Below, piece after piece: positions 24,695-54,153 of a DNA stretch of 64,000 nt. A program made the position numbers and the translations under genes. The notes under the pieces were generated by a model. The model worked only from the letters and a program-made list of their open reading frames with translations, did not search any database and was not told where the DNA came from. The stretch spans positions 124,001 through 188,000 of the forward strand of contig MPNQ01000003.1 of assembly GCA_002239105.1 (NCBI GenBank), written 5' to 3'. Position 1 is the first letter of the stretch. Every line of letters begins with the position of its first letter. The stretch comes from a marine group bacterium Sva0996 bin134 (GTDB lineage Bacteria; Actinomycetota; Acidimicrobiia; Acidimicrobiales; Bin134).

Positions 24695-24703
24695 ACGCGC
24701 AAA

Positions 24704-34384: not shown

Positions 34385-36267
34385 CCTTTACCGCTGGTCG
34401 CCCGCACCCAGCGGCCTAGGGCCATCACTGGGAACACCAGGCGGTACAGGTGGTAGCGGATGTAGAAGTCTCCGGAGAAACCGGTCCCGGTGTACCAGGG
34501 CTCGTCCCAGTCGCCGTCAGCGCGCTGATTGGCCACCAACCAAGCCACCCCTCGACGAGCTGCCTCCCCCTCAGCCCGGCCGGCAGCAATCAAGGCCAGC
34601 AGCGCCCACGCAGTCTGCGACGGGGTGGTCTCCCCGCGGCCCCGCCAGTTCTGGTCGGTGTATGAGCGCATGTCCTCGCCCCAGCCGCCGTCGGGGTTCT
34701 GCACCGACTCCAGCCACCGGCAGGCCTTCACCACTCGGTCGTCGTCAGTCGGCACCCCTGCGCTGATGAGTGCCGGGACCGCTGCGCCGGTGCCGTAGAT
34801 GTAGTTGGCCCCCCAACGCCCGAACCAAGATCCGTCGTCCTCCTGCTCGGCGCTCAGCCACTGAACCCCCCGGTCCACTGCCTCCCGGTCCACCGGCAAG
34901 CCCAGCCTGTCGGTGTCCAGCTCGCACAACATCTCCACCACGTGGGCGGTCACGTCAGCCGACGGCGGGTCGATGACCTCACCGAAGTCGCAGAAGGGGA
35001 GTTCGGCCACCAGTGGGGAGCAGTTGTCGGCGTCGAATGCCGCCCAACCGCCGTCAGCGCACTGCATCCCCTGAGCCCACACCACCGCTCGCTCCAGCGC
35101 CTTTTGCACCGGCTTGGCATCGGGATGGCGGATTCGGCGCAGGGCCAGGGCCACCTCGGCCGTGTCATCCAAGTCGGGGTAGTAGTTGTTTTCGAATTCG
35201 AACGCCCACCCGCCGGGGGCCAAATGGGGGCGCTGCTCAGCCCAGTCGCCGACGACATGAACCTCTTGGTCCAGCAGCCAGCGGGCTCCAGCCTCCATCT
35301 GCGAATCGTCTGGCTCCAAGCCAGCGTCGGCTAGGGCCACCAGGGCCAAACAGGTATCCCACACCGGCGATTGGCAGCATTCCAGCCGGCGCATGTCGTC
35401 TTCGACGATGGTCCAGGCGTCGAACCCCTCCAGCCCTTTGGCCAGAATCGGATGCTTCAGGGAATAGCCCCGCACGTACAGGGCCAGCAGGGAGTACACC
35501 CACGGTGGCTGAATGCCACCCCAGCAGCCGTCAGCCTCTTGGCGGGCGACAATCCACTGCTCAGCCCGGCTCAGCGCCCATTGTCGCAACCGCTGGTACG
35601 GACGGTTCTCATAGATATGCAGCGCCCGGTCGATGCGTTGGAATCTCCGGGCCACCGTGCCGTTCCGGGCGAGCTCTCTCTCCGGGGGAAGGGCGCCTGT
35701 GCGGATCTCGTCCAGGCTGATTCCCATGGAGCGCACGGGGCGGTAAGCACCCACGACGGTCAACGCCACCACGGTCTGACGGGCCCAGCAGGCAAAGTCG
35801 TAGATGTTCAACGGCACGTTCTTGGGCAGAAGGACCACCTCAGGGGGCAGGGCGGGGAGGTCTTCCCACCGCCACAGCCCGAACAGCGCCATCCAGACCC
35901 GGGTGAACACCCGGCTGCGCTCCAGGCCGCCCTCGCCGCGGATATACGCAGCCGCCTTGGCCATGTGGTCGGCGTCGACGGGATCGCCGGCATAGCGCAG
36001 CGCCCAGTAGGCCTCAACCGTTACCGACAAGTCGGCCGGACCCTGGAAGTAGGTCGACCAGGTGCCATCAGCCCGTTGGCTGTGGCGAATCCAGTTTGCC
36101 GTCTGTCGGGTGATCTCCGGGTCGGCGATGCCCAAGAACTCCCGCAGAAACAGATCCTCGGCCTCAATGGATACGTTGGTCTCCAGTTCGTCCTTCCACC
36201 ACCCCTTGGCGTCTTGGAGGTTCAAGAGCCGATCGCGGGCCCTGGCCAGGGATTGCTCTGCACTCAT
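34381..36267 (-). CDS. shc: Squalene-hopene cyclase
   Basis: Cyclises squalene to hopene (and hopanol) at the cytoplasmic membrane. The protonating motif DxDD is visible as Asp365-Leu-Asp367-Asp368 (in YYPDLDDTAEVAL). Several QW repeats of the terpene-cyclase barrel are present, such as WLSAEQEDDGSW and WLESVQNPDGGWGED; DWDEPWYTGTGFSGDFYIRYHLY near the end is the typical SHC C-terminus. Length 628 aa is normal. It overlaps the upstream prenyl synthase by 1 nt and hpnG by 4 nt. Confidence 0.97.
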   Translation of the reverse strand: MSAEQSLARARDRLLNLQDAKGWWKDELETNVSIEAEDLFLREFLGIADPEITRQTANWIRHSQRADGTWSTYFQGPADLSVTVEAYWALRYAGDPVDADHMAKAAAYIRGEGGLERSRVFTRVWMALFGLWRWEDLPALPPEVVLLPKNVPLNIYDFACWARQTVVALTVVGAYRPVRSMGISLDEIRTGALPPERELARNGTVARRFQRIDRALHIYENRPYQRLRQWALSRAEQWIVARQEADGCWGGIQPPWVYSLLALYVRGYSLKHPILAKGLEGFDAWTIVEDDMRRLECCQSPVWDTCLALVALADAGLEPDDSQMEAGARWLLDQEVHVVGDWAEQRPHLAPGGWAFEFENNYYPDLDDTAEVALALRRIRHPDAKPVQKALERAVVWAQGMQCADGGWAAFDADNCSPLVAELPFCDFGEVIDPPSADVTAHVVEMLCELDTDRLGLPVDREAVDRGVQWLSAEQEDDGSWFGRWGANYIYGTGAAVPALISAGVPTDDDRVVKACRWLESVQNPDGGWGEDMRSYTDQNWRGRGETTPSQTAWALLALIAAGRAEGEAARRGVAWLVANQRADGDWDEPWYTGTGFSGDFYIRYHLYRLVFPVMALGRWVRATSGKG

Positions 36268-37265
36268 CAGAAGTCCCTCCCTACGATGAACTGGGCCAGA
36301 GAACGCATCTCCTCCACCGCCTCGGACACCACCGAAGGGAATTGGGAAACTGAATCGAGGGCCGACATCGCTTGTCCGAGGTGGGTCCGGGCCAGCGCCT
36401 GGGTGCCCTCCCGACCACCTCCCACATCCACCAGGGCCCGGGCCGCGCTCACATCTTTGGCTTCCAACTCGGGACGGGTATAGAGATCGGCCAGATCATC
36501 GGCTACTGAAGTGCCGCTGTTGAGCGCGATCACCACCGGCACCGACTTCTTGCGCTCCCGCAGATCAGCCCCCGCGGGCTTCCCGGTGCGCTCGGGATCA
36601 CCCCATATGCCCAGCAGATCGTCCACCGCCTGAAACGCAATCCCCATATGCATGCCGTAGTCGGCCAATCTCTCGACGACTTCGTCATCAGCCCCGGCCA
36701 AGATGGCCCCCACCGATGAGGCGTATGACAGAAGCGCTCCGGTCTTGCCCTGCTCCATGGCCAGGCATTGCTCCAGAGTGATGTTGGGCATCTCCTCAAA
36801 GGCCATGTCCATGCTCTGGCCGGCGATCATGGCCGAAATCGCCTCAGCCAAATGCTTGGCTGCTTTGACCCTGGGCGGGGTGGGGTCGGACAGCAAGGTT
36901 TGGAACGCCAAGGCGTGGAGGGCATCTCCGGCGATTACGCCGACGCCGACCCCGAATTTGGCCCACACGGTGGCCCGGTGTCGGCGCTCGGCATCGTTGT
37001 CGATGATGTCATCGTGGATGAGCGAGAAATCGTGGATTAGCTCAATGGCCACCCCTCCCGGAACCCCAGTCTCGGAGGGAGCGCCTGCGGCCTCGGCTGA
37101 CAAGATGGCCAGCGCAGGGCGAGTTCCTTTGCCCCGACCCTGGAAGTGGTACTCGGCAGGCACCCTCAGTTCGGTGCACAGGCCGCCTAAGGCGGCGGCA
37201 ATGGCAGGGTCGACCAAGTTTCTGGCCCTCTCAAGAATGGCCGGAGTCTGCGATCCACCGCTCAT
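36267..37265 (-). CDS. Polyprenyl (farnesyl-type) diphosphate synthase
   Basis: Class I trans-prenyltransferase that makes prenyl diphosphate, most likely farnesyl diphosphate, for the downstream squalene steps. The first Asp-rich motif follows His84: DDIID at 85-89 (HDFSLIHDDIIDND). The second is DDLLGIWGD. The GKGTRPAL segment is typical. The ATG at 37265 overlaps the hpnE stop by 4 nt (ATGA); upstream in-frame codons do not belong to the family. About 332 aa. The chain length cannot be read with certainty from sequence. Confidence 0.94.
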   Translation of the reverse strand: MSGGSQTPAILERARNLVDPAIAAALGGLCTELRVPAEYHFQGRGKGTRPALAILSAEAAGAPSETGVPGGVAIELIHDFSLIHDDIIDNDAERRHRATVWAKFGVGVGVIAGDALHALAFQTLLSDPTPPRVKAAKHLAEAISAMIAGQSMDMAFEEMPNITLEQCLAMEQGKTGALLSYASSVGAILAGADDEVVERLADYGMHMGIAFQAVDDLLGIWGDPERTGKPAGADLRERKKSVPVVIALNSGTSVADDLADLYTRPELEAKDVSAARALVDVGGGREGTQALARTHLGQAMSALDSVSQFPSVVSEAVEEMRSLAQFIVGRDF

Positions 37266-38704
37266 GCAATGGTCCTTTCTCTTTGGTCTTGCCCAGAGGG
37301 CATCAATGCGTCGGCGCCGTGGCAGTGATCCAGCGCGAGGCGGGCCGCCTGATTGCCGGAGCGGACCGCACCTTCCATGGTGGCCGGCCAGCCGGTATCG
37401 GTCCACGCCCCGGCCAAGAACAGGCCGTCAATGGCGGTGGTCGGACCGGGACGAAGCCGACGGGTGCCAGGACGGCCGGCAAAGGTGGCCCGGTGCTCTC
37501 GGGTCACCACTGCATCCAAGACTTCGGCATCGGCTGAGAGGGGGAATAGGTCGGCCAGAGCCGAGCGATAGCGCTCGATCATCTCGGCAGGCCGGTCGCC
37601 GATCTCATCGAACGCGGCCGACTGCGAAACAGCCAACACCTGCTCGTCGCGGCCTTCGGTACCTGTGATCTCCTCGGGTTCGTCCGCAGCCCAGTGGGCG
37701 GCCTCGGTGCGGTCGAACACGAACTGCACCGGCGAGTCAAGAGCCGCGGCAAAGGGCACGTCCATAACGCGGCGGTCGAACACGAAATGCACGTTGGCAA
37801 TGGGAGAGATCCCCAGGTCGGCCAGCTCGGTTTGCCGGGCGACAGTGTCGGGGGGCAGGCGGCGGCCCGCGACGTCGTGGGGCACGGCGAGGATCACCGC
37901 GTCGGCCTCGATCCGCTGCCCGTCCACCTTCACCGAAGGGCCGTCGCCCACAGATTCCACCGGGGCTTGGAGCTCGATTGTCCCTCCTTGGGCGGCGATC
38001 ACCCGGGCGGCCGCATCGCCGTGCAGGGCAGACAACGGCACCCGAGTCCAGCCCAAATCGCCGGAATCGGCGTCGTCCAAGAGCCCGGTGCGAAAGACCT
38101 TCACCGCCAGGCTCAGCGAGGCGTCGTCGGCCTTCAAATTCACGGTGGGCAAGCAGATCAGGTCCCACAAACGGGCGACGGCCTGGTCGGACTCTCCCCG
38201 AAATCGAAGCCAACCGCCGAAGCTCATCTCGTCGGTTCCGGGATCGTCGGGATCAAGGCGGCGCAGGGCCAGAGCAGTGCGAACCGCCCGCAGCCGGTCA
38301 CCCACCGAAAGCGGGCCGTAGCGCAGGAGCGACCGGGCTAGGTGCAGGGGAGCCGGGGCGCCGGTACGGGAGATACTCGCCGGGCGGCCGCCGGGACGGA
38401 TCACGGGAACCGACAGCCGGGACTGCTCGGCCACTTGGTCGGCTGCTCCCAAGCGGTCCAAAAAGGCCCGATACTCGGTACAGCACCGCATGAACACGTG
38501 CTGGCCGTTGTCGAACCAGCGGCCGTTGCGCTGGAACGACCAGGTCGCCCCGCCCAATCGGGGGGCCCGCTCATACAGCGTCACCTGGGCCCCGCCGTCG
38601 GCGGCGGCCACCGCCGCGGCCAAACCAGCCAATCCACCTCCGACCACCGCAACCTTCGGTGTCACGTCCGGATCGGTCGTCAGCCGGGAACCCGTCGGAC
38701 TCAT
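37262..38704 (-). CDS. hpnE: Hydroxysqualene dehydroxylase HpnE
   Basis: FAD-dependent amine-oxidase-fold enzyme that converts hydroxysqualene to squalene. Dinucleotide-binding motif VAVVGGGLAGLAAAVAAA begins at about residue 18, followed by ERAPRLGGATWSF. WFDNGQHVFMRCCTEYRAF and, near the C-terminus, LFLAGAWTDTGWPATMEGAV are typical of the HpnE group. I set the start at ATG 38704, which overlaps the hpnD stop (ATGA); longer frames upstream are out of family. About 480 aa. Confidence 0.95.
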   Translation of the reverse strand: MSPTGSRLTTDPDVTPKVAVVGGGLAGLAAAVAAADGGAQVTLYERAPRLGGATWSFQRNGRWFDNGQHVFMRCCTEYRAFLDRLGAADQVAEQSRLSVPVIRPGGRPASISRTGAPAPLHLARSLLRYGPLSVGDRLRAVRTALALRRLDPDDPGTDEMSFGGWLRFRGESDQAVARLWDLICLPTVNLKADDASLSLAVKVFRTGLLDDADSGDLGWTRVPLSALHGDAAARVIAAQGGTIELQAPVESVGDGPSVKVDGQRIEADAVILAVPHDVAGRRLPPDTVARQTELADLGISPIANVHFVFDRRVMDVPFAAALDSPVQFVFDRTEAAHWAADEPEEITGTEGRDEQVLAVSQSAAFDEIGDRPAEMIERYRSALADLFPLSADAEVLDAVVTREHRATFAGRPGTRRLRPGPTTAIDGLFLAGAWTDTGWPATMEGAVRSGNQAARLALDHCHGADALMPSGQDQRERTIA

Positions 38705-39555
38705 GTCGTGACACCGGCCAGACTGCGGAGTGCCACCCAGGCCTTCTCCCTGGTGGGCAACGACATCCGCCCCTCTAGTACCGCCGTGGGGGAAGCTGCG
38801 ATTCGGGCCAACAGCCGGTGGTAGATCCCGGCCATCGCCCCAGTACAGGCTCGGCTGCGGTGGTCCAGCATCTTGAGCAGCTTCAGCCCTTCGGCGAAAC
38901 GCCGATCGGCCCGCTCCGCCTCGAATGACACCAGTGCACCAACCGCATCGGTGGGCCCGGTCAGGTCGGGGGCGCAGCCGAATTGCTCGATGTCGTCGGC
39001 CGGCAGGTAGACCCGGCCCATGCCCCGGTCCTCCACTATGTCGCGCAGGATATTGGTGAGCTGAAGGCCCACGCCCAGCACATCGGCCAGTTCGCTGGCC
39101 TCTTCGGCATCGCCGGTTGTTCCGAAGACCCCCAGCGACAGGCGGCCTACCGATCCGGCCACCAGCCGGCAATACTGCTCTGTTTCCTCGATGGTGGTGT
39201 ACACCTTCCCAACCGCGTCCTGTTCACAGCCGTCAACGATCTCGTTCAGCGCGGCCACCGGGATGGGGAAACGGCCAATGGCATCGCCCAGCCCGACCAG
39301 CACCGGGTCTTCAGAGTCGCTGACCCCGCCATTGGCCAGAGTGTCGATGTCGGACCGCAGTTGGGCCAACTGGACGAGTTTTTCGTCTTGGGGAAGGGGA
39401 CCGTCGCCCACATCGTCGATGCGCCGGGCCATGGCATACAGAGCGGACATGGCCAGGCGCTTAGGCTTGGGCAGCAGCCGGATGCCGTAGAAAAAGTTGC
39501 GGGCCTCAGTCCGAGTGATCTCCTCGCACCGTTTATAGGCGTCGGCTGTCCTCAC
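38701..39555 (-). CDS. hpnD: Presqualene diphosphate synthase HpnD
   Basis: Condenses two farnesyl diphosphates to presqualene diphosphate. Squalene/phytoene synthase fold with a first Asp-rich motif in ARRIDDVGDG (about residues 45-54) and the second around ILRDIVEDRGMGRVYLP (about residue 165), both magnesium-binding. RTEARNFFYGIRLLP at the start is the HpnD pattern. Length 284 aa is normal. Its ATG overlaps the hpnC stop by 4 nt. Confidence 0.95.
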   Translation of the reverse strand: MRTADAYKRCEEITRTEARNFFYGIRLLPKPKRLAMSALYAMARRIDDVGDGPLPQDEKLVQLAQLRSDIDTLANGGVSDSEDPVLVGLGDAIGRFPIPVAALNEIVDGCEQDAVGKVYTTIEETEQYCRLVAGSVGRLSLGVFGTTGDAEEASELADVLGVGLQLTNILRDIVEDRGMGRVYLPADDIEQFGCAPDLTGPTDAVGALVSFEAERADRRFAEGLKLLKMLDHRSRACTGAMAGIYHRLLARIAASPTAVLEGRMSLPTREKAWVALRSLAGVTT

Positions 39556-40454
39556 CTTCGCCTCCAGCGCGTAGCGGCGTCGCGCGCGGCGCGAACCGTT
39601 TTGGCGTCGGTCAACCGGTGGAGGGCGACCAGCCGGACAGCATGAATCGAAGTCCGGACCTTCGACGGGGTCCGCAGCTTTCTCAGCACGTCGTAGTCAG
39701 CTCCAGCAATGGCATCCAACGCGGCCAATCCCCCGGCGGCATAGCCAGCCACCGTCACCCTGGCCCACCCGCTGAGGGAGGCCACCAACGGCTCACCTCG
39801 GCACAGCAGGCCGCGAGCGCTGTCGCACTGGTGGGCCACTAGCTTGCGGAGCGGCTTCGATGCCCTTTCGGCCCCAAGATCATCCTCATCCACACCGAAG
39901 CGGGATAGCTCGTCGGCCGGGAAGTAGATGCGGCCCTTTTCGGTGTAGTCCTCGCCGATGTCCTGAAGGTGCTCCACCAACTGGAGCCCGGTGCACACCG
40001 CGTCGCTGAGGGCGATGCGCTCGGGGGTGGCCGCGTCGAAGACCGCCAGCACCAGCCGACCCACGGGGTTGGCCGACAGCGTGCAGTACTCGGCCAGTTC
40101 GGCCTGGGTCTGATAGCGGTGCTTGCGCTGGTCAACTCGATTGGCCTCGATGAGGGCCAAGAACGGCTCATCGTCGATGTCCAGTTCGGTGAGCGAACCG
40201 GTGAGCTGCGACATCACCGGGTGGGTGGCGCCACCGGTGCGGGCCAGGTAGAGCTCGGCTTCGAGCCAGTCCAGCGCGGCCAAGCGGTCGCCGTCGTACT
40301 CGTCCCCGATGTCGTCCACGAGGCGGGCGAATCCGTAGACGGCCAACAAATGGGCCCGGGGACGCGCCGGTAGGGCCTTCAGCACAACCGGAAAATTCTC
40401 GCTTCGGCTCTGGGCCATAATCGAGTTCAAATCGAACTCGACTTCGGTCTTCAC
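39552..40454 (-). CDS. hpnC: Hydroxysqualene synthase HpnC
   Basis: Converts presqualene diphosphate to hydroxysqualene, the step before HpnE. Squalene-synthase fold: SENFPVVLKALP at the N-terminus is characteristic of HpnC, the first Asp-rich motif is RLVDDIGDE, and the second lies in LQDIGEDYTEKGRIYFP. Length 300 aa. The GTG at 40454 has a G-rich Shine-Dalgarno (GGGGGG) about 6 nt upstream. It is the first gene of the hopanoid operon, behind a 140-bp promoter region with two inverted repeats. Confidence 0.95.
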   Translation of the reverse strand: MKTEVEFDLNSIMAQSRSENFPVVLKALPARPRAHLLAVYGFARLVDDIGDEYDGDRLAALDWLEAELYLARTGGATHPVMSQLTGSLTELDIDDEPFLALIEANRVDQRKHRYQTQAELAEYCTLSANPVGRLVLAVFDAATPERIALSDAVCTGLQLVEHLQDIGEDYTEKGRIYFPADELSRFGVDEDDLGAERASKPLRKLVAHQCDSARGLLCRGEPLVASLSGWARVTVAGYAAGGLAALDAIAGADYDVLRKLRTPSKVRTSIHAVRLVALHRLTDAKTVRAARDAATRWRRR

Positions 40455-40594: not shown

Positions 40595-41389
40595 TCAATC
40601 CAGGTCTGTCAAGGCAATGACCGCCCCGGCGTCATCGAAGTTGGGACGATCGGCGAAGCGGCCCATGAGACTCTCGGCGAAAATGTGGGCGATGGCGTCC
40701 ATTATGAGGGCGCCGGCGAGCCGATGGCCCCGGGGATCGTCGGACAGAGCTTCTCCGAGCCGCTCGGCCAGCCGCCAGAACACCCGCTGGGCGGCGGCGG
40801 CATGTTCCACTTGGCCCTGCACCGAGCGCTTGGCCACCTCGAGCATGATGGGAAGTCCCGGCAAAAGGGTCTCAGCCAGGCGGCGGGTGAGCTCTTCTCG
40901 GCTCAGGCCGACCTGGCCGTCGACCGCGGCGGCGAATTCCTCGGCGGTGTTGTCCACCACTGCTTCCACCGCTTGGAAGAACAGATCTTGCTTGGAGCGG
41001 AAATAGCGGTAGAACGTTCCCTTGGCCACCCCGGCCTGAGCACAGATATCGGACACGCTCACTTCGGTGTAGCCCCTCAGGGCGAACTCCTGAATAGCCA
41101 CGTCCCGCAACTGCTCGCCGCTGTCCGCCAAGTTGGCCACTTCGGCATGGTCGGGGTTCTCGGCGTTCATGATCTGGGCAATATGGCGCAGCGGGAGGCG
41201 GTGTCGTTCTCGCAAATCCCTGATCCGCTCCACCGCGTCAGCGTGGCGCTGGCTGTAGAAGAAGCGGTTGGCCGCGGCTCGGCGGGGCGCGGGCAGAAGG
41301 CCCAGCCGTCGATAGTGGTGGATGGAAGCCGCTGGAACCCCAGTGCGGGCTACCAGCTCGCTGATGGGGAACTCGCCGGGAGTGCCCAT
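40595..41389 (-). CDS. Hybrid MerR-TetR transcriptional regulator
   Basis: One protein with two DNA-binding domains. N-terminal MerR-type winged helix, about residues 6-70: FPISELVARTGVPAASIHHY followed by RRLGLLP. Then a complete TetR N-terminal domain, about residues 85-135: RDVAIQEFALRGYTEVSVSD, AGVAKGTFYRYF and SKQDLF. The last 130 residues are TetR-like helical ligand domain. The start is ATG 41389; TTG 41410 is an alternative. It is immediately upstream of, and in the same direction as, the hopanoid operon, so it could control it, or the ferredoxin genes on the other side. The ligand is unknown. Confidence 0.88.
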   Translation of the reverse strand: MGTPGEFPISELVARTGVPAASIHHYRRLGLLPAPRRAAANRFFYSQRHADAVERIRDLRERHRLPLRHIAQIMNAENPDHAEVANLADSGEQLRDVAIQEFALRGYTEVSVSDICAQAGVAKGTFYRYFRSKQDLFFQAVEAVVDNTAEEFAAAVDGQVGLSREELTRRLAETLLPGLPIMLEVAKRSVQGQVEHAAAAQRVFWRLAERLGEALSDDPRGHRLAGALIMDAIAHIFAESLMGRFADRPNFDDAGAVIALTDLD

Positions 41390-41456
41390 GACTCCACTCT
41401 TATTCGCCAAGCGGCTCCACCGCCAGCGCGTCGCAAAATCTTGTGGCCGCTTTTGC

Positions 41457-43358: not shown

Positions 43359-44525
43359 TTAGGAGGTGGGCTTGTCGGAACCGACGATCCACATGGCGTA
43401 GTACTGGGCTCCGCCTCCGTAGGCGTGGCCGAAGGCCTTGCGGGCGCCGTCCACTTGGTGGTCGCCAGCCATGCCCCGAACCTGGAGGGCGGCCTCGGCG
43501 AATCGGATCATTCCCGATGCTCCGATCGGATTGGAAGAAAGCACCCCGCCCGAGCAGTTCACCGGCAGATCGCCGCCGTCGAGATGGGTGGCGCCCTCCT
43601 CCACCAGCTTCCAGCCGTCGCCGATCTCGCAGAACCCCAGGCTCTCCAGCCACATCGGCTCGTACCACGAGAACGGCACGTAGATCTCCACCGCGTCGAT
43701 TTCGGCCCGACGGTCGGTGATGCCAGCCTGGGCGAACACGTCGTCGGCGCAGTCCCGGCTGGCCTGGGGGTTCACCTCGTCGCGCCCGGGGAAGTTGTTG
43801 GCCTCGCTGCGCAATGCCGTGCCGTGGATCCAGGCCACCGGCTTGGTAGAGGCGTCCCCGGCGGCCTCGTCGCCCAGCACCAGCGCACACGCTCCGTCCG
43901 ATGATGGACAAGTTTCTGAAAACCGCACCGGCTCCCACAGCATGGGCGACTCCACCACCTGGTCGAAGGTGAGTTCCTTTTGCTGAAGATGGGCGTAGGG
44001 ATTGCGCAGCGCGTGCTGGCGGTCTTTGAACGCCACCATGCAGCCGATCAGCTCGGGGGCATCAGTGCGGGCCATGTACTGGCGGATGATGGGCGAGAAG
44101 TAGCCGCCGGCGCCGGCGTTGATCGACACTGAGAATGGCTGGGGCAGCGACAGCGCCCAGGTGGCGTTGGACTCCGACTGCTTCTCGAACCCCAGGGTGA
44201 GCACTCTGCGGTGGATTCCGGCCTGCACCAGCGAGGCGGCCACCACGGCGGTAGACCCGCCCACCGATCCTGCGGTATGAACCCGCAGCAGCGGCTTGCC
44301 CACCGCCCCCAGCGCCTCGGCCAGGAACAGCTCGGGCTGCATAACCCCTTCAAAGAAGTCGGGGGCCTTGCCCACCACCACCGCGTCGATATCGTCCCAA
44401 CCCAGCTCAGCATCCTCCAGGGCCCGGTAGGCGGCCTCCCGCACCAGGCCGGGCAGCGACACGTCGCCTCGGGTGGTTTGGTACTTGGTCTGGCCGACCC
44501 CCAGCACCGCGGTGCGCTCGGCCAT
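43359..44525 (-). CDS. Thiolase-fold protein, lacks the nucleophilic Cys (Ltp2/SCP-x-like)
   Basis: 388-aa member of the SCP-x/lipid-transfer thiolase group. The fold is clear (KTKYQTTRGDVS-like start, ALEDAELGWDDIDAVVVG, SDGACALVLG, SSNPIGASGMIRFAEAAL). At the nucleophile position, where thiolases have AC-x-SG, the sequence is HTAGSVGGST, with no Cys; the GHP of the active site is replaced by SNP. So Claisen chemistry is unlikely, and an aldolase or scaffold role like that of mycobacterial Ltp2 is possible. The ATG at 44525 overlaps the stop of the upstream partner by 1 nt. It is the second of two such genes. Confidence 0.9.
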   Translation of the reverse strand: MAERTAVLGVGQTKYQTTRGDVSLPGLVREAAYRALEDAELGWDDIDAVVVGKAPDFFEGVMQPELFLAEALGAVGKPLLRVHTAGSVGGSTAVVAASLVQAGIHRRVLTLGFEKQSESNATWALSLPQPFSVSINAGAGGYFSPIIRQYMARTDAPELIGCMVAFKDRQHALRNPYAHLQQKELTFDQVVESPMLWEPVRFSETCPSSDGACALVLGDEAAGDASTKPVAWIHGTALRSEANNFPGRDEVNPQASRDCADDVFAQAGITDRRAEIDAVEIYVPFSWYEPMWLESLGFCEIGDGWKLVEEGATHLDGGDLPVNCSGGVLSSNPIGASGMIRFAEAALQVRGMAGDHQVDGARKAFGHAYGGGAQYYAMWIVGSDKPTS

Positions 44526-45580
44526 CACTCCCCCTCCATCACGCACACCAGATTCTGCTGGAGGTACAAGCCGGAGGCTGCGTGGCCCAGCACTCGGTCG
44601 GCTCGGCCGTCGTGGATCTGTTGCGCGGCATCGGCGATGCGCATGAGGCCGGCGGCCATCATGGTGTGGCCGGCGAGCGCGCCACCGCTGGCGTTGACCG
44701 CGGTTTCGGGTACCAGCCCCAGCTCGACCTCCAAGATGTGCTCCTGGGTGGTGAACGGGGCGGCCAGCTCGGCGGCGTCCAAGCGGTCGTCGCCCGCTCC
44801 GGCCTGGGCCGCGGCTTTGTGGGCGCTGGGCGCCCGGGTGAGATCGCGGACTCCAGGCTGGTGGGGATCGATGCGATGGTCGATGCCTTTGATCCACGCT
44901 GGTCGATCGCACAGCTCCCGGGCCCGGTCGCCGGCGGCCAGCACCACGGCCACACCCCCGTCAGCAGAGGCGGCACAGTCGCTGGGCCGCAGCGGGTCGG
45001 CGATGGGTGCCTCGGCCAACACGTGGTCGACGGTGGCCGCAGCGGAGGATCGCACGGCCAGCGGATTTTCGGCCGCGCCGTTCAGGCTGCGGACGGCGAT
45101 CTCAGCCAATCGCTGCTCGCTCACTGCTCCCGACTCCAACATGATCCGGGCCTGGAGGCCGGCCATGGCGAAGGCGTCGGGCCACAGCGGCCCCAGGTAG
45201 TAGGGGTCGAGCTGGGTACTCAGCACGTCGCGCAGCGAGCCGGGCGACGACTTGCCGTAGCTGTACACCAGCGCGGTGTCCACCGCGCCGATCTGGAGCT
45301 TCACCCACGCCTCGTACAGAGCCCACGCGCCGTCCATCTCCACGTGGCTCTCGCTGATGGGCGGGACCGCACCCACCGCGTCCAGGGTGTGGACAAATGA
45401 GAACGCCTGTCCGGCCAGAAAGTCGCTGCTGCCCGAGCAGGTGAAGCCGATGTCATCCTGCGTCAGGCCCACGGCGCCACGGGCCTGGTTGATGAGCGGC
45501 ACCATCAACTCCACCTCAGTGGTGTGGGTGAGCGCCTTCTCCTGGTGCTGGGCCACCGAGACAACGGCGATGTCGCGCAT
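44525..45580 (-). CDS. Second thiolase-fold protein, also Cys-less
   Basis: 351-aa SCP-x-like thiolase-fold protein. N-terminal HHxxxxE-like strand start RDIAVVSVAQHQEK, then VGLTQDDIGFTCSGSSDFLAGQ. Where a nucleophilic Cys would sit, the sequence is SHVEMDGAWALY, again without Cys. NASGGALAGHTMMAAGLMRIADAA retains the His of the active site, unlike its neighbour. It overlaps that neighbour by 1 nt and the upstream DUF35 gene by 1 nt, so the two thiolase-like chains and DUF35 proteins are made together, probably as one complex. Confidence 0.9.
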   Translation of the reverse strand: MRDIAVVSVAQHQEKALTHTTEVELMVPLINQARGAVGLTQDDIGFTCSGSSDFLAGQAFSFVHTLDAVGAVPPISESHVEMDGAWALYEAWVKLQIGAVDTALVYSYGKSSPGSLRDVLSTQLDPYYLGPLWPDAFAMAGLQARIMLESGAVSEQRLAEIAVRSLNGAAENPLAVRSSAAATVDHVLAEAPIADPLRPSDCAASADGGVAVVLAAGDRARELCDRPAWIKGIDHRIDPHQPGVRDLTRAPSAHKAAAQAGAGDDRLDAAELAAPFTTQEHILEVELGLVPETAVNASGGALAGHTMMAAGLMRIADAAQQIHDGRADRVLGHAASGLYLQQNLVCVMEGE

Positions 45581-46173
45581 CAGCCCTGGTCTCCCTCGGC
45601 CTGTTTAGCGTGCCAAGCGTTGGTGCCGGCTGCCGTGACTGGCACGTCGGGCTCCCCGGTGGGCTCCCAGTACAAGATGTTCTCCGCGGTGCGGCCCAAC
45701 TGGTCGTCGGGCTTCCACACCGCCCGCACCCGCATCCCCATGCGTACTTGCGCGGTGTCGATTCCCCCCACCAAGCCAAGGAAGCCGATGTCGGCGCCGT
45801 CGAGGTGGATCCAGGCGCTCACATAGGGGATTTCCAGGTCGTCTCGGCCCGGAATCGGCAAGCGGGTCACACAGAAGCCCCCCACATGGCCGGTGTCGGG
45901 CAACTCCACATAGTCGGGGGTGGCCGCGCCGTGGCGGGGATCCACGCCCCGCGGAGGTACGAACACTGCGCCGTCCACCGGGGAGCGCTGGCCGAGGATC
46001 TTGCGGTCGGCGAAGGCGTTCAGATAGCCGGATGAGGCATCACCGGGAATGAAGTCGTACTCCAGGCGGATGGGGGTGCGTACCGACCGCACCAGCTCCA
46101 CACCGGCCAGCTTCTCGGGCAGGCTCACCTCGCCCGAAAGCGCCGCAGGAGGAACACTCGGATCGGCGCTCAT
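45580..46173 (-). CDS. DUF35 OB-fold protein (acyl-CoA-associated), 1
   Basis: About 197 residues. DUF35 proteins partner thiolase-like enzymes; ChsH2-DUF35 with Ltp2 in steroid side-chain cleavage is the known case. Here EYDFIPGDASSGYLNAFADRK is followed by an OB-fold core (VPPRGVDPRHG, CVTRLPIPGRDDLEIPYVSAWIHLDGADIG, GMRVRAVWKP). The zinc-ribbon Cys pairs of some DUF35 proteins are absent. The start is ATG 46173, overlapping the next gene by 4 nt. Confidence 0.85.
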   Translation of the reverse strand: MSADPSVPPAALSGEVSLPEKLAGVELVRSVRTPIRLEYDFIPGDASSGYLNAFADRKILGQRSPVDGAVFVPPRGVDPRHGAATPDYVELPDTGHVGGFCVTRLPIPGRDDLEIPYVSAWIHLDGADIGFLGLVGGIDTAQVRMGMRVRAVWKPDDQLGRTAENILYWEPTGEPDVPVTAAGTNAWHAKQAEGDQG

Positions 46174-46616
46174 TGGTCTGCTCCCTCGGGCACAAAACCC
46201 TCCAGATCGGCGATGTGCCCCTCCCGCTCGGACCGCCACCGGGCAGTAACCCGCATCCCCACCGCCAGTTCATCAGGGCCGCTCACCAACAGCCCATGGA
46301 CCATTGGGGTGGCGGCTCCGTCCAGGCGGATCAATCCCAGTCCGTGGGGCCTGTCCCACGGCGACTGGGATCGGGGCGGGTCAACCCAGGTCCAGCTCAC
46401 CAATTCGCCGCCCGGGCCCACCTCTACCAACTCGGTCAGCGGTTCAGAGCTCTCTGGGTCGTATTCGGTGGGCGGGCACAGCACCGTTCCGTCGGGGCGG
46501 CGGATGCCGAGGATGATGCCCTCTCGCAGTCCGGTCAAAAAAGCACCTATCACCGGGCCGGTGGTCCGGGTGAACGGGTACTCCAGCACCAAGTCGGCCC
46601 GAAGCCGCTCCGCCAT
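46170..46616 (-). CDS. DUF35 OB-fold protein, 2
   Basis: 148 residues, a second OB-fold DUF35-type chain: EYPFTRTTGPVIGAFLTGLREG, GIRRPDGTVLCPPTEY, then an OB core ending VGMRVTARWRSEREGHIADLEGF. It has the LVSWTWVDP and HGLGLIRLDGA segments of the group. It overlaps the first DUF35 gene by 4 nt, with the stop of this gene inside its start. Together the operon makes two thiolase-like and two DUF35 chains, a matched set. Confidence 0.85.
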   Translation of the reverse strand: MAERLRADLVLEYPFTRTTGPVIGAFLTGLREGIILGIRRPDGTVLCPPTEYDPESSEPLTELVEVGPGGELVSWTWVDPPRSQSPWDRPHGLGLIRLDGAATPMVHGLLVSGPDELAVGMRVTARWRSEREGHIADLEGFVPEGADQ

Positions 46617-46620
46617 GCGA

Positions 46621-46983
46621 CTACTGGGCTCCGTCTACGGAAATAGTGCCAGCGTCTGTGTCGATGACCACCGTGGTCCCGTCGGCCGGCTCGTCGCCGT
46701 CGAACTCCACCCCCATGAGGCATGGGATCTGGAAGTCCCGGCTGATGATGGCCAGGTGGCTCTCAATGTCGCCCGACCGGCACAGGATCCCAGCCAGGTC
46801 GGCCTCGATGGGGGCCAAGAACGTGGCCCCCGCGTCTTTCACCAGCGCCACCGTCTCGGAGGCGACGTCATCGCCGGCATCGAGCACTGCGATCACGTCG
46901 TCGGGGGTGTCGAAGCGCACCAGCCGTCCTTGGCCGGAGATCCCGGAGAAAACCGAGCTTCCCCGGCCCACAACACCGCCCAT
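46621..46983 (-). CDS. Stand-alone PEP-utilising mobile (swivel) domain protein
   Basis: 120 residues that match only the phosphohistidine swivel domain of PEP-utilising enzymes. The signature region SGDIESHLAIISRDFQIPCLM fits the family pattern with the phosphorylated His in SHLAI. The nucleotide-binding and PEP-binding domains are missing from this gene and its neighbours. It is 4 nt from the DUF35 gene and probably the first gene of the thiolase/DUF35 operon. Such free swivel domains occur in comparable operons in actinobacteria (from memory); their role is unclear. Confidence 0.85.
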   Translation of the reverse strand: MGGVVGRGSSVFSGISGQGRLVRFDTPDDVIAVLDAGDDVASETVALVKDAGATFLAPIEADLAGILCRSGDIESHLAIISRDFQIPCLMGVEFDGDEPADGTTVVIDTDAGTISVDGAQ

Positions 46984-47021: not shown

Positions 47022-48104
47022 TCAGAACTCGATGACCTGGCGCACAACCTCGCCGTTGCGCACCGCCTCTAGGGCCGGGTTGATCTCGTCGATGGTGATT
47101 CGCCGGGTGATCATGCTCTCCAAGTCCAGCCGGCCGTTCTTCCACAACCGCAGCAGCCGGTGGAAGTCGGTGCGCACGTCGGTGCCGCCGTAGTACGAGC
47201 CGACCAGGGTCTTCTCGTTGTAGAACAACTCGAAGGCGCTGAATGACACCATCTCCTCCATGCGGCCCACTCCTACGATGCAGCAGGTGCCGCCCCGCCG
47301 GGTCATGTCGTAGGCAGTGCGCATCAGCGCGGGAACGCCGACGCACTCTAGGGCGTAGTCGAATCCGTCGCCGCCGGTGATCTCGTTCTTGGCCCCCTCC
47401 AGTTCTTCGGGCAACACCGCGTGGGTGGCCCCGAAGGAGATGGCCTCGTCGAGCTTGGCCGGGTTCTTGTCCACGGCCACGATCTCAGCCGCCCCGGCGA
47501 TCCTGGCACCCTGGATGGCGGCCACGCCCACGCCCCCGGCGCCGATCACCACAACCGACGAGCCGGGGCTGACCTTGGCGGTGTTCATGGCCGCACCGGC
47601 CCCGGTCATCACCCCGCAGCCGATGAGAGAGGCCACGTCCAGAGGGATGTCGGGATCGATCTTCACCACTCCCTGGCGGGGCATCAGCATCTTCTCTGCG
47701 AAGGTGCCCGCTCCGGCCATTCCCCCGATCTCCTGGCCTCCCTGGGTGAACTTCATTCGGGCCATGGAGCCGAAGGTGATGTTGGAGCAGAGGTTGGGCT
47801 GATTGCGGCCCGTGCAATAGACGCAAGTCCCACAAGGCGGAGACCACACCACGATCACATGGTCGCCAGGAGCCAGGTCGTCCACATTGGAGCCCACCTC
47901 CTCGATGATCCCCGCTCCTTCGTGGCCGAGCACCGCCGGCGGGGCCTGGGGAATGGTCCCGTTCATGGCCGACACGTCGGAGTGGCACACCCCGGTGTGG
48001 GTGATCTTGATGGCTACGTCATCAGGGCCCAAGTCCAACATCTCGACGTCGTCACACACGTCCAGATTGATTTCGCCCACTTCTCGCATTATCGCCGCAA
48101 GCAT
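47022..48104 (-). CDS. Zinc-dependent alcohol dehydrogenase (class III / NDMA-type MDR)
   Basis: Oxidises an alcohol, probably a long-chain or aromatic one. Catalytic zinc Cys in TGVCHSDVSAMNG and His in GHEGAGIIEEVG; structural zinc Cys cluster in PPCGTCVYCTGRNQPNLC; NAD motif VVIGAGGVGVAAIQGARIAG. 360 aa, normal for the MDR family. The start may be ATG 48104 or MREVGE at 48089. It lies 39 nt upstream of the swivel-domain gene and may head the operon, as an alcohol-to-aldehyde step before CoA chemistry. Confidence 0.94.
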   Translation of the reverse strand: MLAAIMREVGEINLDVCDDVEMLDLGPDDVAIKITHTGVCHSDVSAMNGTIPQAPPAVLGHEGAGIIEEVGSNVDDLAPGDHVIVVWSPPCGTCVYCTGRNQPNLCSNITFGSMARMKFTQGGQEIGGMAGAGTFAEKMLMPRQGVVKIDPDIPLDVASLIGCGVMTGAGAAMNTAKVSPGSSVVVIGAGGVGVAAIQGARIAGAAEIVAVDKNPAKLDEAISFGATHAVLPEELEGAKNEITGGDGFDYALECVGVPALMRTAYDMTRRGGTCCIVGVGRMEEMVSFSAFELFYNEKTLVGSYYGGTDVRTDFHRLLRLWKNGRLDLESMITRRITIDEINPALEAVRNGEVVRQVIEF

Positions 48105-48176: not shown

Positions 48177-49334
48177 ATGCCGCAGACCATTCCGCTGGAC
48201 ATCGAAGAGCTGAATCTCCAAGTTGAGTTCTGGGACATCCTGGTCTCGGAAAACTCCAAAAAGCGCACTGGTCTCACGTCGGGGCTGATCCCGGTACGGG
48301 AGTACACCGGCTACTCGGGCATGGAGGCCTGGCTGCGCTGGCCCGACATCCTGGCCCGCTGCGACGAGGTGATGGAAGCGTCCGAACTCGGAGCCAAGAT
48401 GCGGGGCCCGGGCACACAGACCACCAACGCCCACCCGTTCGCACTGGCCTGCATCCCGTTCGGCGGCTGGCGGGCCCTGGAGGAACTCTCGGCCATGGGG
48501 CTCACCACCCAGGTGGACGATGTGGAAGACCGGGTGCGGTTCCTCCTCGACTACTGGATGCGGTGGGTGGAGCCGTGGAGGGGCGACGGGTTCCGCTCGT
48601 GCTGGGACGCGGCCGACACGCTGCAGACCTGCGATCCCGACATCATCGACACCCTGTACGAGGCCGCATGGCCGGTGGAGGGCGCCAGCGAGAACCGAAC
48701 GGCTCGGCGGTTCGTGGCCGGGCTCCAGCAGTACTTGTTCCTGCTGTATCTGGACACCCGGCTGGGCACGGGAGACACCGGTCCCTACCCGCTGCCCAAC
48801 GGCCGTCACATGATCGTGCGGGAGTTCTCGTCGCTGGCCCAGAGCTGGATTCCATGGAGCCACGTGGCCGCCGATGTCCCCTACCAGAACATGGTGGTGG
48901 GGCTGGTGTTCCGGCCCGGAATCCATAACCGCGTGAGCGACCTGTCCACCACGTTCTCGGTGCCGGCCGACAACCTGGCCTGGCTGGAGGCCATTTCGGT
49001 GTTCGACTCCCAGCCCGGCGGCAAGCTGGTGCCGGTGGACAAAGAGGAGATGCCCGACATCCTGGCCGCCATCAAGAAGGCCCAGGCCGACGCTTACCGG
49101 TTGATGAACACTTGGACCTTCGAGGAGAAGGTCCGCAACGGCACCTATGTGTACTTCCGGGGCCTGATGTGGCCGTTCACCAACATCCTGGGTATCGACG
49201 ACGAATTCGACTGGTCGATTCCCCACCCCCACACCGCCGAGACGGTGTGGCCCGTATTCGCCGGCGGCCTGCCCGACCAAGAAGACGCCGAAGAGGTCCC
49301 CTTCCCGATGTTCCCCCGGATAAAAGGAGCCTGA
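48177..49334 (+). CDS. Uncharacterised 385-aa protein, operon partner of LLM oxidoreductase
   Basis: I do not recognise this family. It is soluble, acidic and Trp-rich, with no signal peptide. Notable pieces are VREYTGYSGMEAWLRWPDIL, a QQYLFLLYLDTRLGTGDTGP stretch and FRPGIHNRVSD. No cofactor motif is evident. It ends 4 nt before the LLM gene, whose Shine-Dalgarno lies within its last codons, so the two are certainly co-transcribed. Third positions are strongly GC-biased, as in real genes here. It is probably specific to actinobacteria using F420; that is a guess from context. Confidence 0.85.
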   Translation: MPQTIPLDIEELNLQVEFWDILVSENSKKRTGLTSGLIPVREYTGYSGMEAWLRWPDILARCDEVMEASELGAKMRGPGTQTTNAHPFALACIPFGGWRALEELSAMGLTTQVDDVEDRVRFLLDYWMRWVEPWRGDGFRSCWDAADTLQTCDPDIIDTLYEAAWPVEGASENRTARRFVAGLQQYLFLLYLDTRLGTGDTGPYPLPNGRHMIVREFSSLAQSWIPWSHVAADVPYQNMVVGLVFRPGIHNRVSDLSTTFSVPADNLAWLEAISVFDSQPGGKLVPVDKEEMPDILAAIKKAQADAYRLMNTWTFEEKVRNGTYVYFRGLMWPFTNILGIDDEFDWSIPHPHTAETVWPVFAGGLPDQEDAEEVPFPMFPRIKGA

Positions 49335-49338: not shown

Positions 49339-50349
49339 ATGAAGTTCGACATGGCGCTTTCGGGCGAATTGGAGGGAATCCGAGACCAGGCCGAGGCGTA
49401 CGAGGCTATGGGGGTCGACGGGGTGTTCACCTTCGAGGGCCAGCGCGACGTGTTCTTCCCGCTGGTGGCCGCCGCCGATCACACCGGGCTCGACCTCTAC
49501 ACCAACGTGGCCATCGCCCTGCCCCGCAGCCCGATGCATTTGGCCTACCAGTCGTTCGACCTGCACCGGCTGTCGGGCGGGAAGTTCGCCCTGGGCCTGG
49601 GATCGCAGATCAAGCCCCACATCACCAAGCGCTACAGCGCAGTGTGGGACCGCCCGGTGGCCCAGATGCGAGAGCTGATGGCGGCCACCAAGGCCATATT
49701 CGCCTGCTGGCAAGACGGCGAGCGGCTCGACTTCCGGGGCGATTACTACACCTTCACCCTGTCCACCCCGATCTTCGAGCCCGGTCCGCTGGAGTGGGGG
49801 GCACCGCCCATCTGGGCCGGCGCGCTGGGTCCGAAGATGACCCAGATGACCGCCGAAACCGCCGACGGCATCCTGATCCACCCGTTCTGCTCCGAGCATT
49901 TTCTGCGGACCAAGACGAAGCCCGCAGTGGAAGCGGGATTGGCCGCCGCCGGGCGCACCGGGGACGACTTCACCTTCGGCGTGGGGGTGATCGTCGGCCT
50001 CTATGACGACGACGCCGACGAGGCCCAAAGGCTGGCAGTAGAACAGCGCTGCCGTTCCAACCTGGGCTTCTACGGCTCCACCCCGGCCTACCGGGTGGTG
50101 CTCGACGCCCACGGCTGGGGCGGGCTCCAAGACGAGCTGAACCTGCTCACCAAGCAGGGCCGCTGGGCCGAAATCGGCGACGTCTGGGACGCCGACATGG
50201 TCCACACCCTCAGCGTGCAGGGCACACCCACCGAGGCCGCCACCGAGATCCTCCGCCGCTTCGGCGCCCTAGCCGACCGCATCCACCTTTCCCTCCACGG
50301 CGCCCCCCAACCCCTGGTAGCCGAGCTGTTCGCCAACCTGAAGGGCTGA
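49339..50349 (+). CDS. LLM-class flavin/F420-dependent oxidoreductase
   Basis: Luciferase-like monooxygenase fold, most likely using coenzyme F420 or FMN. KFDMALSGELEGIRDQAEAY starts the barrel; HRLSGGKFALGLGSQIKPHI and GPLEWGAPPIWAGALGPKMT with ETADGILIHPF are typical of the TIGR03617-like subgroup of actinobacterial LLM proteins. Length 336 aa is normal. ATG 49339 follows AAGGAG with a 9-nt gap. It follows the unrecognised 385-aa gene and faces the MFS operon end. Confidence 0.93.
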   Translation: MKFDMALSGELEGIRDQAEAYEAMGVDGVFTFEGQRDVFFPLVAAADHTGLDLYTNVAIALPRSPMHLAYQSFDLHRLSGGKFALGLGSQIKPHITKRYSAVWDRPVAQMRELMAATKAIFACWQDGERLDFRGDYYTFTLSTPIFEPGPLEWGAPPIWAGALGPKMTQMTAETADGILIHPFCSEHFLRTKTKPAVEAGLAAAGRTGDDFTFGVGVIVGLYDDDADEAQRLAVEQRCRSNLGFYGSTPAYRVVLDAHGWGGLQDELNLLTKQGRWAEIGDVWDADMVHTLSVQGTPTEAATEILRRFGALADRIHLSLHGAPQPLVAELFANLKG

Positions 50350-52083: not shown

Positions 52084-52158
52084 CTAGCGTTTGCCCACAG
52101 GGAGTTCGGCGATGATTTCCTGGGCACGAACGGCCACGCTAGACGAGGTACCAGCAAC

Positions 52159-53007
52159 ATGAGCAGCGAGAGTACAGAAGGCACCGTCACCGAGGTCCTC
52201 GGCGGCGACATCCTGGTGGCCCAAGACGGCGGCGTGCTCACCCTCACCTTGAACCGGCCGGACGCCCACAACGCCATTACCCCCGACCAGCGGAACTTCT
52301 TGGCCGAAGAGTTCGCCCGGGCCAGCGAGGACCTCGCCGTTCGAGCCGTGATCTTCACCGCGGTAGGCAAGGGGTTCTGCACCGGTGCCGATCTACGCAT
52401 GTCCCGGCCCGACCCGGTGCGGCCTGAGGGGGCCCCTGCCCGAGCAATCTTGGATGGCGCTCGAGGCATCAAGACCGGGGCTCAGAAGCTGGTAGCAGCC
52501 ATCTTGGACTGCGAAAAGCCGGTGATCGCCGCGGTCAACGGCACCGCCGCGGGCATGGGAGTGCACATGGCTGTGGCCTGCGATCTGGTTATAGCCGCCG
52601 AGGGGGTCCGGTTCATCGAGGTCTTCGTGCGCCGGGGCCTGGTGCCCGATGCCGGCGGTGTGTACTTGCTGCCCCGCCTGATCGGCCCCCAGAAGGCCAA
52701 GGAGCTGATGTTCTTCGGCGACGACGTGAGCGCGGCCGATGCGCACGCCATGGGGCTAGTGAACCGGGTGGTGCCCCCCGAAGAGCTGATGCCTACCGCC
52801 CAAGCTTGGGCTAAGCGGCTGGCCTCCCAGCCCACCAAGAGCCTCACCATGAGCAAACTGCTGGTGAACCGCAGCTTCGAGACCAGCCGTCAGACCATGT
52901 TCGAGATGGAGGCCTGGGCCCAAGACCTGCTGATGGCCGGCGAGGACGCCATGGAGGGGGTCGACGCTTTCAAGGAGCGGCGCGACCCCAACTGGAAGGG
53001 CTGGTAG
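52159..53007 (+). CDS. Enoyl-CoA hydratase/isomerase family protein
   Basis: Crotonase-fold hydratase acting on a CoA thioester. The oxyanion-hole pieces are GKGFCTGADL and NGTAAGMGVHMAVACDL; ARRGLVPDAGG-like FVRRGLVPDAGGVYLLPRLI follows, as in the family. Length 282 aa. ATG 52159 has GAGGT 9 nt upstream; the frame upstream (52045-52158) is out of family and overlaps the divergent MFS start. It is convergent with the first acyl-CoA dehydrogenase gene (3 bp apart). Confidence 0.94.
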   Translation: MSSESTEGTVTEVLGGDILVAQDGGVLTLTLNRPDAHNAITPDQRNFLAEEFARASEDLAVRAVIFTAVGKGFCTGADLRMSRPDPVRPEGAPARAILDGARGIKTGAQKLVAAILDCEKPVIAAVNGTAAGMGVHMAVACDLVIAAEGVRFIEVFVRRGLVPDAGGVYLLPRLIGPQKAKELMFFGDDVSAADAHAMGLVNRVVPPEELMPTAQAWAKRLASQPTKSLTMSKLLVNRSFETSRQTMFEMEAWAQDLLMAGEDAMEGVDAFKERRDPNWKGW

Positions 53008-53010: not shown

Positions 53011-54153
53011 CTAGCGGGCCTCGGCCAGGGTGCGGCCGATGGCCGCCAGTTGGCGGCTGCCGCCACCGAAGGTGTTCTCCAACTGCTTGACCCACAAGAA
53101 GTAGCGGTGCACGGGGTAGTCGATATCAGCCCCCATTCCCCCGTGCAGGTGCTGAGTGGCATGCACCACCCTCTGGCCGGCATCGGCCGACCACCACTTG
53201 GCCACCGCGGCGGCATCGGCGATCTCGGCGGCTGGACGGCCCTCGTCGATGAGCCAGGCAGCCTGGAGGAGGGTGACCCTCATGCAGTCGGTGTCGATGT
53301 AGCAGTCTGCCGCCCGCATGGACACCCCTTGGTTGGTGGAAAGGGGGCGGCCGAACTGCTCCCGCTCCGAGGTGTAGGCCGCGGCCATGGCAGTGGCCTC
53401 CTCACAGCACCCCAGCGCCACCGCGGCCACCGCCACCTGGGCCCGAGCCAGGGTCCACTCAACGATCGACCGACCGTCGGCGCCGCTCAGCATCGCGTCT
53501 TCGCCGACAACCACCGACTGGAACGAGAGCTCGCCGTGGAACTCTCGGTTGGTGGTCTCGCTCAACGCCACCTCCACCCCATCGGCGTCGAGATCCACCA
53601 CAAACACGGCCAGACTTTCGTCGTCGCGGTCGCTCACCACCCGCACGGGCAACAAAACAGCATCGGCCACCCCGGCGGTTGGAACCGCGGGCTTGGAACC
53701 GTTCAATTCCCAGCTGCCGTCGTCGCGGCGAGCCGCGGTCACCGACGGAGAAAATGCGTCGTCGGCCCCCCACTCTGAGAACGCCCCGGTCAGCACCGCG
53801 TGCCCCGAGGCCACCGGGCCGAGCCACCGATCTCGCAACTGCGGTGAGCCGAACTCGGCTATGGGCATGGCCCCCAACACCAGCGTGGGCCACAACGGCA
53901 CCGGTGCCACCCTGCGGCCCTGCTCCCGCAGCACCAACGCGATTTCAACCATGCCGAGCCCGAGCCCGCCGTGCTCCTCGCCGATGGCCACCCCCAGCAA
54001 ATCGGAGCCAGCCAGCGCGGCCCACAGCTCCCGGTCGAACCTATCGGCGGTGCGCTCCACCTCCGCCACCCGGTCGGCACCCGCTGAACCGGAGAACACC
54101 TGCTCGGCCAACGCGGCCACCGCGTCCTGCGCCTCGCTGTAATCGAAGTTCAT
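53011..54153 (-). CDS. Acyl-CoA dehydrogenase 1
   Basis: FAD-dependent alpha,beta-dehydrogenation of an acyl-CoA. 380 aa. The N-terminal helical domain is followed by the beta-domain, with LTGAFSEWGADD and DGSWELNGSKPAVPT, and the C-terminal helical domain with SEREQFGRPLSTNQGV. The catalytic Glu position near the C-terminus appears as GGMGADIDYPVHRYF, where many paralogues have E-Y. It is 37 nt after the second dehydrogenase gene, so the two form an operon, and probably a heterotetrameric pair like FadE26/27 or FadE28/29. Confidence 0.93.
   Translation of the reverse strand: MNFDYSEAQDAVAALAEQVFSGSAGADRVAEVERTADRFDRELWAALAGSDLLGVAIGEEHGGLGLGMVEIALVLREQGRRVAPVPLWPTLVLGAMPIAEFGSPQLRDRWLGPVASGHAVLTGAFSEWGADDAFSPSVTAARRDDGSWELNGSKPAVPTAGVADAVLLPVRVVSDRDDESLAVFVVDLDADGVEVALSETTNREFHGELSFQSVVVGEDAMLSGADGRSIVEWTLARAQVAVAAVALGCCEEATAMAAAYTSEREQFGRPLSTNQGVSMRAADCYIDTDCMRVTLLQAAWLIDEGRPAAEIADAAAVAKWWSADAGQRVVHATQHLHGGMGADIDYPVHRYFLWVKQLENTFGGGSRQLAAIGRTLAEAR

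Follow-up and report, generated by a model that had tools for sequence, protein, structure and literature searches.

A split Ltp3/Ltp4-type gene set and a swivel-X385 gene pair side by side in an Acidimicrobiia genome

We analysed a stretch of 64,000 nt from the genome of the marine group bacterium Sva0996 bin134 (contig MPNQ01000003.1, positions 124,001 to 188,000), referred to here as the window and numbered from its first nucleotide. At 43359-46983 on the (-) strand lie five neighbouring genes, for two thiolase-fold proteins without the nucleophilic Cys, two DUF35 chains and a stand-alone phosphoenolpyruvate (PEP)-swivel domain; all five genes named in a preliminary description of this DNA were recovered. 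The first gene of the run encodes a Zn alcohol dehydrogenase (47022-48104, -; PF00107/PF08240, with TIGR03989 as the best NCBIfam match at 311 bits, under the cut-off of 440). It is followed in the order of transcription by SWV, a phosphohistidine (PEP-utilizers mobile) swivel of 120 aa that has kept His76 (46621-46983, -; PF00391, E 3.4e-10), DUF35a, the first OB_ChsH2_C chain (46170-46616, -; PF01796, E 2.9e-11), DUF35b, the second such chain (45580-46173, -; PF01796, E 3.7e-10), ThlA (44525-45580, -; 351 aa) and ThlB (43359-44525, -; 388 aa, ATG at 44525). The place of DUF35b in this order presupposes an internal ATG; its frame is open to 46239, the likely true start being the ATG at 46173. 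A gap of 38 nt separates the alcohol dehydrogenase gene from SWV and one of 4 nt separates SWV from DUF35a, after which the genes overlap by 1-4 nt; because of this spacing a single operon and transcript is likely. From a shared 72-nt intergenic region the (-) run starts in one direction and two (+) genes in the other: X385 (48177-49334), a member of an uncharacterised family, and, in line with it, an F420-dependent LLM-class oxidoreductase (49339-50349; TIGR03617, 394 bits against a cut-off of 278). We consider it probable that two separate modules lie side by side here, a retro-aldolase of the Ltp3/Ltp4 class and a phosphotransfer pair made up of SWV and X385.

The swivel domain had at first been thought to have no obvious partner, a view that X385 overturns; situated 1.2 kb beyond the five-gene run, it is the more interesting lead of the two modules. 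An X385 alignment and two peptide patterns were used to scan 84,980 species, each represented by one genome. The scan gave 57 loci, which underestimate the family since it rests on those two patterns, and a later tblastn search added plasmids of Rhodococcus and Proteobacteria. SWV is adjacent to X385 in 51 of the 57 loci; in the remaining 6, a contig ends at X385 or close to it. The two genes share a strand in 36 of the 51 loci, among them a fused frame of ~540 codons (L192), a reversed order (L165) and a frameshifted X385 (L203), and are divergent in the other 15. Two remote X385 homologues found in a whole-genome search also adjoin a swivel frame. The close relatives in the scan are mainly metagenome-assembled genomes of Acidimicrobiia, one of them Candidatus Poriferisocius aerobius. 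Outside this close group, the pair in Acidimicrobiia and their kin often has a malate-dehydrogenase-like frame (26/38 loci), an SCP2-like frame (20/38) or a DUF7064/7065 protein (18/38) in its vicinity. A swivel profile built from the genus of the window and run on 396 genomes of the phylum and 22 of the genus gave matches in 4 of the former (the source genome included) and 18 of the latter; in the three genomes of other genera the swivel directly adjoins an X385 homologue, away from aldolase genes.

None of 41 X385 members gave a credible match in Pfam or NCBIfam, and a sequence search of the PDB with X385 returned no useful match. The AlphaFold2 model of X385 is confident, with a pLDDT of 91.4 and a pTM of 0.90, and its comparison with the PDB gave a best E of 0.9 with Foldseek (none at E<=0.001) and a best Z of 4.2 with VIA-align, which does not in itself prove a new fold. 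Nor did the fold search link X385 to any RPH chain; such a missing match does not exclude an RPH-like fold. For a fusion of SWV and X385 the predicted model reached a pTM of 0.84, which would fit a docked swivel, and its swivel part scored Z 13-15 to the C-domain of pyruvate kinase and to the RPH swivel.

Nine plasmid records were found by tblastn with X385, and seven were fetched (all but H3 and H4, each of which has a match with the query range, identity and score of the H2 match); in six of the seven a swivel stands beside X385 or is fused to it. The plasmid pRB98 of R. oxybenzonivorans (L211, 6930-18421) holds the SWV-X385 module three times, once as a fusion and twice as separate genes, in one catabolic cluster together with CoA ligases, a protein combining ATP-grasp and swivel domains, and a biotin carboxylase. 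In Rhodococcus sp. 008, X385, SWV, a 198-aa protein, a DUF7065 protein and an ATP-grasp-swivel protein follow in a row, and in R. pyridinivorans and R. opacus B4 the module lies near a gene annotated as pyruvate, phosphate dikinase. In Methylibium petroleiphilum the pair is found on RPME01, the plasmid of a fuel-ether degrader (L219, 6081-16675), near a cobalamin-binding protein, an AMP-binding protein and MeaB; we presume a possible link to the metabolism of tertiary alcohols. DUF7065 proteins recur beside the module, weakly in L211 and also in L218, L219 and Acidimicrobiia.

This gene company supports phosphotransfer, and we interpret swivel and X385 as a phosphotransferase acting on small molecules, with an acceptor component that has so far gone unrecognised. 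The SWV histidine would act as a phosphoryl shuttle, as in split small-molecule dikinases, with a donor protein at one end and at the other a small molecule bound to X385, the proposed acceptor or substrate component. The nearest scheme on record is that of HpeHI, described in PMC12167813 as an ATP-grasp chain and a substrate-and-swivel chain which phosphorylate hydroxyacetophenones, the swivel His being essential. The two-component phenolic dikinases HpeHI, CreHI and PpsAB, together with rifampin phosphotransferase, resemble the pair in having a swivel with a conserved His that shuttles between split components, and in their catabolic clusters; they differ in carrying the swivel and an RPH-like substrate domain on one chain, with the ATP-grasp chain as the second component. 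A literature search, out of whose reach most subscription papers lay, found no publication on the SWV-X385 pair.

The most serious alternative, which we nevertheless hold to be unlikely, is that the pair is regulatory or otherwise not phosphorylated, with the swivel as a structural mobile domain. What speaks for it, and so weighs against phosphotransfer, is the donor: PPDK_N, the ATP-grasp domain, has 0 matches in the source genome, where a 524-aa PEP-utilizers_C protein holds the one further copy of PF00391, and of 13 other carriers tested 8 have the domain and 5, the single-contig genome G415 among them, do not. A PPDK_N protein was therefore rejected as the partner of the swivel in this genome. 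The X385 of Novosphingobium, with no swivel within 8 kb, also counts against the proposed phosphotransfer pair. On the other side, the swivel His is retained in 51 of 51 loci, six Arg are found among the 32 invariant columns of the X385 alignment, and an ATP-grasp-swivel protein accompanies the module on Rhodococcus plasmids.

Turning to the remaining four genes, ThlB scores 667 bits against NCBIfam PRK08313 (NF006180; cut-off 514) and is thus of Ltp3 type, and ThlA scores 497 bits against PRK07937 (NF005924; cut-off 419), the Ltp4 type. At E<=1e-80, PRK07937 was found in 37 of the 396 genomes sampled across the phylum and in 18 of the 22 genomes of the genus. From these matches we chose and fetched 40 relative loci (L067-L106), in which the order DUF35-ThlA-ThlB is kept throughout, a contig edge cutting ThlB in L097 and DUF35 in L079. 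Each relative locus except the contig-cut L079 holds two DUF35 domains, in many relatives in one fused frame and otherwise in two; the two DUF35 chains of the window are thus a conserved double-DUF35 protein in split form. PF01796 (OB_ChsH2_C) lies above the cut-off in both, and neither translation contains the C4 set of zinc-ribbon Cys or a PF12172 match; among the relatives the zinc-ribbon motif is retained in 10 of 56 DUF35 frames. It is therefore well supported by sequence comparison that the four genes are a known Ltp4/Ltp3-type pair with a double-DUF35 protein split in two, and not a new system. The genome carries a second, more distant Ltp4/Ltp3-type pair with a fused double DUF35 on other contig sequence, cut by contig ends (G000:C25:424-1470, represented by L002 and L097, and G000:C63:218750-219301, represented by L003); in G415 the two Ltp4/Ltp3-type systems lie ~25 kb apart.

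The active sites were compared in alignments of relatives, the motif counts omitting two ThlA rows and one ThlB row that are cut or misframed at the motifs concerned. In the nucleophile loop of ThlB, HTAGS, Gly86 stands opposite the Cys of SCP2-thiolase, and this position lacks Cys in 41 of 41 aligned rows. The corresponding loop of ThlA, SHVEMD, has no Cys either, and none occurs in the 39 usable rows of its relatives. Homologues with the Cys in place, which the preliminary description had named as a refutation of its reading, were thus not found among these rows; since the residue is missing in all of them its loss is no sequencing fault, and being absent family-wide it is a mark of the class rather than a novelty of this genome. 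The GHP motif reads GHT in ThlA and SNP in ThlB, where its loss had been pointed out before; ThlB relatives have SNP or a similar triplet, with Asn and never His at the place of the GHP His (40/40 rows). By the features of a canonical or SCP2 thiolase, a nucleophilic Cys and, for ThlB, the GHP His, neither protein belongs among them. The HDCF loop of SCP2-thiolase is replaced in ThlB by YVPF (YIPY in two rows), with Tyr282 present in 40 of 40 rows, whereas the Tyr place in ThlA is variable among relatives and occupied by Ala273 in the window (motif AAPF). A catalytic role is reported in the available text of PMC12329534 for the tyrosines of two motifs, YDHF in Ltp2 and YDCY in Sal; Tyr282 was equated with Tyr294 of TcLtp2 (6ok1, rank 17) through the SCP2 and BbsB alignments and the motifs given in that part of the paper. 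Because ThlB retains this Ltp2/Sal-type tyrosine and ThlA does not, we infer from the sequences that ThlB is the likely catalytic chain, with Tyr282 as base or acid, and ThlA a degenerate, likely non-catalytic partner.

The locus with the best PRK07937 score, the mycobacterium-like L067, has as neighbours a P450, an acetoacetate-decarboxylase-like protein, an LLM oxidoreductase, a double-DUF35 protein, an enoyl-CoA hydratase and an AMP-binding enzyme, and between its DUF35 and LLM genes the intergenic region contains the box TAGAACAGGTTCTA, which we take to be of KstR type. The best matches to NF005924 in the phylum are such KstR-boxed loci. ThlB and ThlA of the window share 66% and 51% identity with the L067 proteins, and the trees place the window group together with L092, which comes from the same taxonomic order, and apart from the KstR-boxed clades. 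The layout of L067 is that of Rv3515c-Rv3523, for which the available part of PMC6429209 lists fadD19, echA19, cyp142, Rv3519, Rv3520c, Rv3521, ltp4 and ltp3. According to the passages available from PMC6678751, which cites Wilbrink 2012, Ltp3-Ltp4 is a heteromeric aldol-lyase cutting the C24-C25 bond of branched sterol side chains; an excerpt of PMC10398937 states that knockouts of ltp3 and ltp4 in M. neoaurum do not block the formation of 4-HBC. In such passages Ltp3-Ltp4 is named without a structure or an assay.

Thus the window resembles the Ltp3-Ltp4 system (Rv3523/Rv3522, with Rv3521) of sterol-degrading Actinomycetes in its two Cys-less thiolase-fold subunits placed in the same order after a double DUF35, both beyond the NCBIfam cut-offs, and in the enoyl-CoA hydratase and LLM oxidoreductase nearby. 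It differs in the separate DUF35 genes, the lost zinc ribbon, the additional neighbours SWV, X385 and alcohol dehydrogenase, and the lack of a KstR-type box and of evidence for a sterol as substrate. With the steroid aldolases Ltp2-ChsH2 and Sal-Shy, whose ChsH2 and Shy chains carry DUF35, it shares a thiolase fold without the nucleophile Cys, a DUF35 partner and a Tyr at the catalytic position; those enzymes differ in having one aldolase chain and no second thiolase-like chain, in the fusion of DUF35 to a hydratase, and in the motifs YDHF and YDCY in place of YVPF. The earlier suggestion of a new Ltp2-like, DUF35-dependent aldolase or C-C lyase thus stands as to type, given the Ltp3/Ltp4 family scores and the gene order, and falls as to novelty, the class being known, if little characterised.

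For the thiolase-like module we propose that ThlB, ThlA, DUF35a and DUF35b form a heteromeric acyl-CoA retro-aldolase of the Ltp3/Ltp4 class, the two DUF35 chains being the halves of the usual double-DUF35 scaffold. An enoyl-CoA hydratase/isomerase family protein (52153-53007, +; PF00378, E 1.4e-57), a possible upstream step, and a pair of acyl-CoA dehydrogenases recognised with Pfam (53011-54153, -, and 54191-55378, -) would yield a 3-hydroxyacyl-CoA. Its alpha-beta bond would then be cut, Tyr282 of ThlB accepting the hydroxyl proton, to give a ketone or aldehyde and a shorter acyl-CoA, with the carbonyl product possibly converted further by the neighbouring alcohol dehydrogenase. Taken with this alcohol dehydrogenase, the hydratase and the two acyl-CoA dehydrogenases suggest that a branched or cyclic acyl-CoA is beta-oxidised, with a retro-aldol cleavage at the end. 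Several observations pull against this assignment. Neither YDHF nor YDCY was found in ThlB (YVPF) or ThlA (AAPF), so that ThlB is without the second catalytic residue of Ltp2 or Sal. The exact KstR-type pattern TNNAACNNGTTNNA has no match in the 64-kb window; sterol as a substrate therefore does not carry over, and KstR control of these genes was rejected on the same ground, the box being a regulatory feature outside the enzyme itself. Furthermore, PRK08313 and PRK07937 were equated with Rv3523 and Rv3522 of M. tuberculosis at the level of layout and family.

That ThlA and ThlB could instead work, by way of an unusual nucleophile, as a Claisen-type thiolase or acyltransferase comparable to BbsAB or PhlABC strikes us as quite improbable. 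Chains of the BbsB, SCP2 and PhlC types are among the nearest solved structures, and BbsB and PhlC likewise use DUF35 partners, as the accessible portion of PMC12329534 has it; yet ThlB has an invariant aldolase-type Tyr, with both Cys (nucleophile and loop) and the GHP His gone, and the literature passages cited above assign the class to aldol cleavage. A non-degradative role of ThlA, ThlB and DUF35, e.g. as a scaffold or an acyl-CoA binder without C-C cleavage, would agree with the loss of all recognisable catalytic residues in ThlA; it is rendered very doubtful by the ThlB motifs HTAGS and YVPFSW and the SNP segment, which are near-invariant across the sampled phylum, and by the hydratase and the two acyl-CoA dehydrogenases 6-10 kb away.

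The single complex including the swivel that was first suggested can hardly be upheld. Of the 57 X385 loci, 11 (those of its own genus and L164) have SWV immediately ahead of DUF35a, and in this genus SWV is, judged by spacing, co-transcribed with the aldolase genes, which counts against a strict separation of the two modules and for a five-chain complex with the swivel as a working or structural aldolase subunit. Among the 40 fetched aldolase loci, however, just 4 contain it, each from the genus of the window, and it stands mostly with X385 without DUF35 or Thl neighbours; G413 and G396, of the same genus, even hold SWV and X385 where the DUF35 and Thl genes are missing. As SWV follows X385 across loci, rarely adjoining aldolase genes, we rejected it as an aldolase subunit and regard the five-chain complex as highly improbable. 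Rather, a retro-aldolase and a separate SWV-X385 pair would have come to share an operon in this genus.

Several other features were seen in passing. A regulator at 40595-41410 (-) joins a MerR-type N-terminal domain and a TetR-type domain in one chain and adjoins ferredoxin and ferredoxin reductase genes. Genes at 34381-40454 (-), which we take to be squalene-hopene-cyclase-like, prenyl-synthase-like and squalene/phytoene-synthase-like, presumably form a hopanoid cluster. Large helicase-like, methylase-like and ATPase-like genes, recognised by eye at 13105-28524 (+), possibly belong to a defence island; the G/C content is partly lower within this stretch (52-61% in 16-26 kb). Elsewhere in the genome, genes resembling Cas2, Cas1/Cas4 and Cas3 by eye (L112, 7522-16643; G000:C63, ~195-204 kb) likely mark a CRISPR-Cas locus.

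Taken together, a whole clade of Cys-less thiolases without the marks of a sterol regulon is placed in the Ltp3/Ltp4 class, with a predicted catalytic subunit, and a consistent gene pair gives an orphan-looking swivel domain a concrete, testable partner. Tentatively, SWV and X385 may represent a new class of small-molecule phosphotransferase in which a free phosphohistidine carrier works with an acceptor-binding protein of unrecorded fold, old in the chromosomes of Acidimicrobiia and disseminated by catabolic plasmids in Rhodococcus and Proteobacteria. It would phosphorylate a hydroxyl or carbonyl compound and, in the present lineage, whose named relatives include a sponge symbiont, would have been wired into an Ltp3/Ltp4-type retro-aldolase pathway. 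The pair suggests an unstudied way of activating substrates, in Acidimicrobiia as well as on catabolic plasmids.

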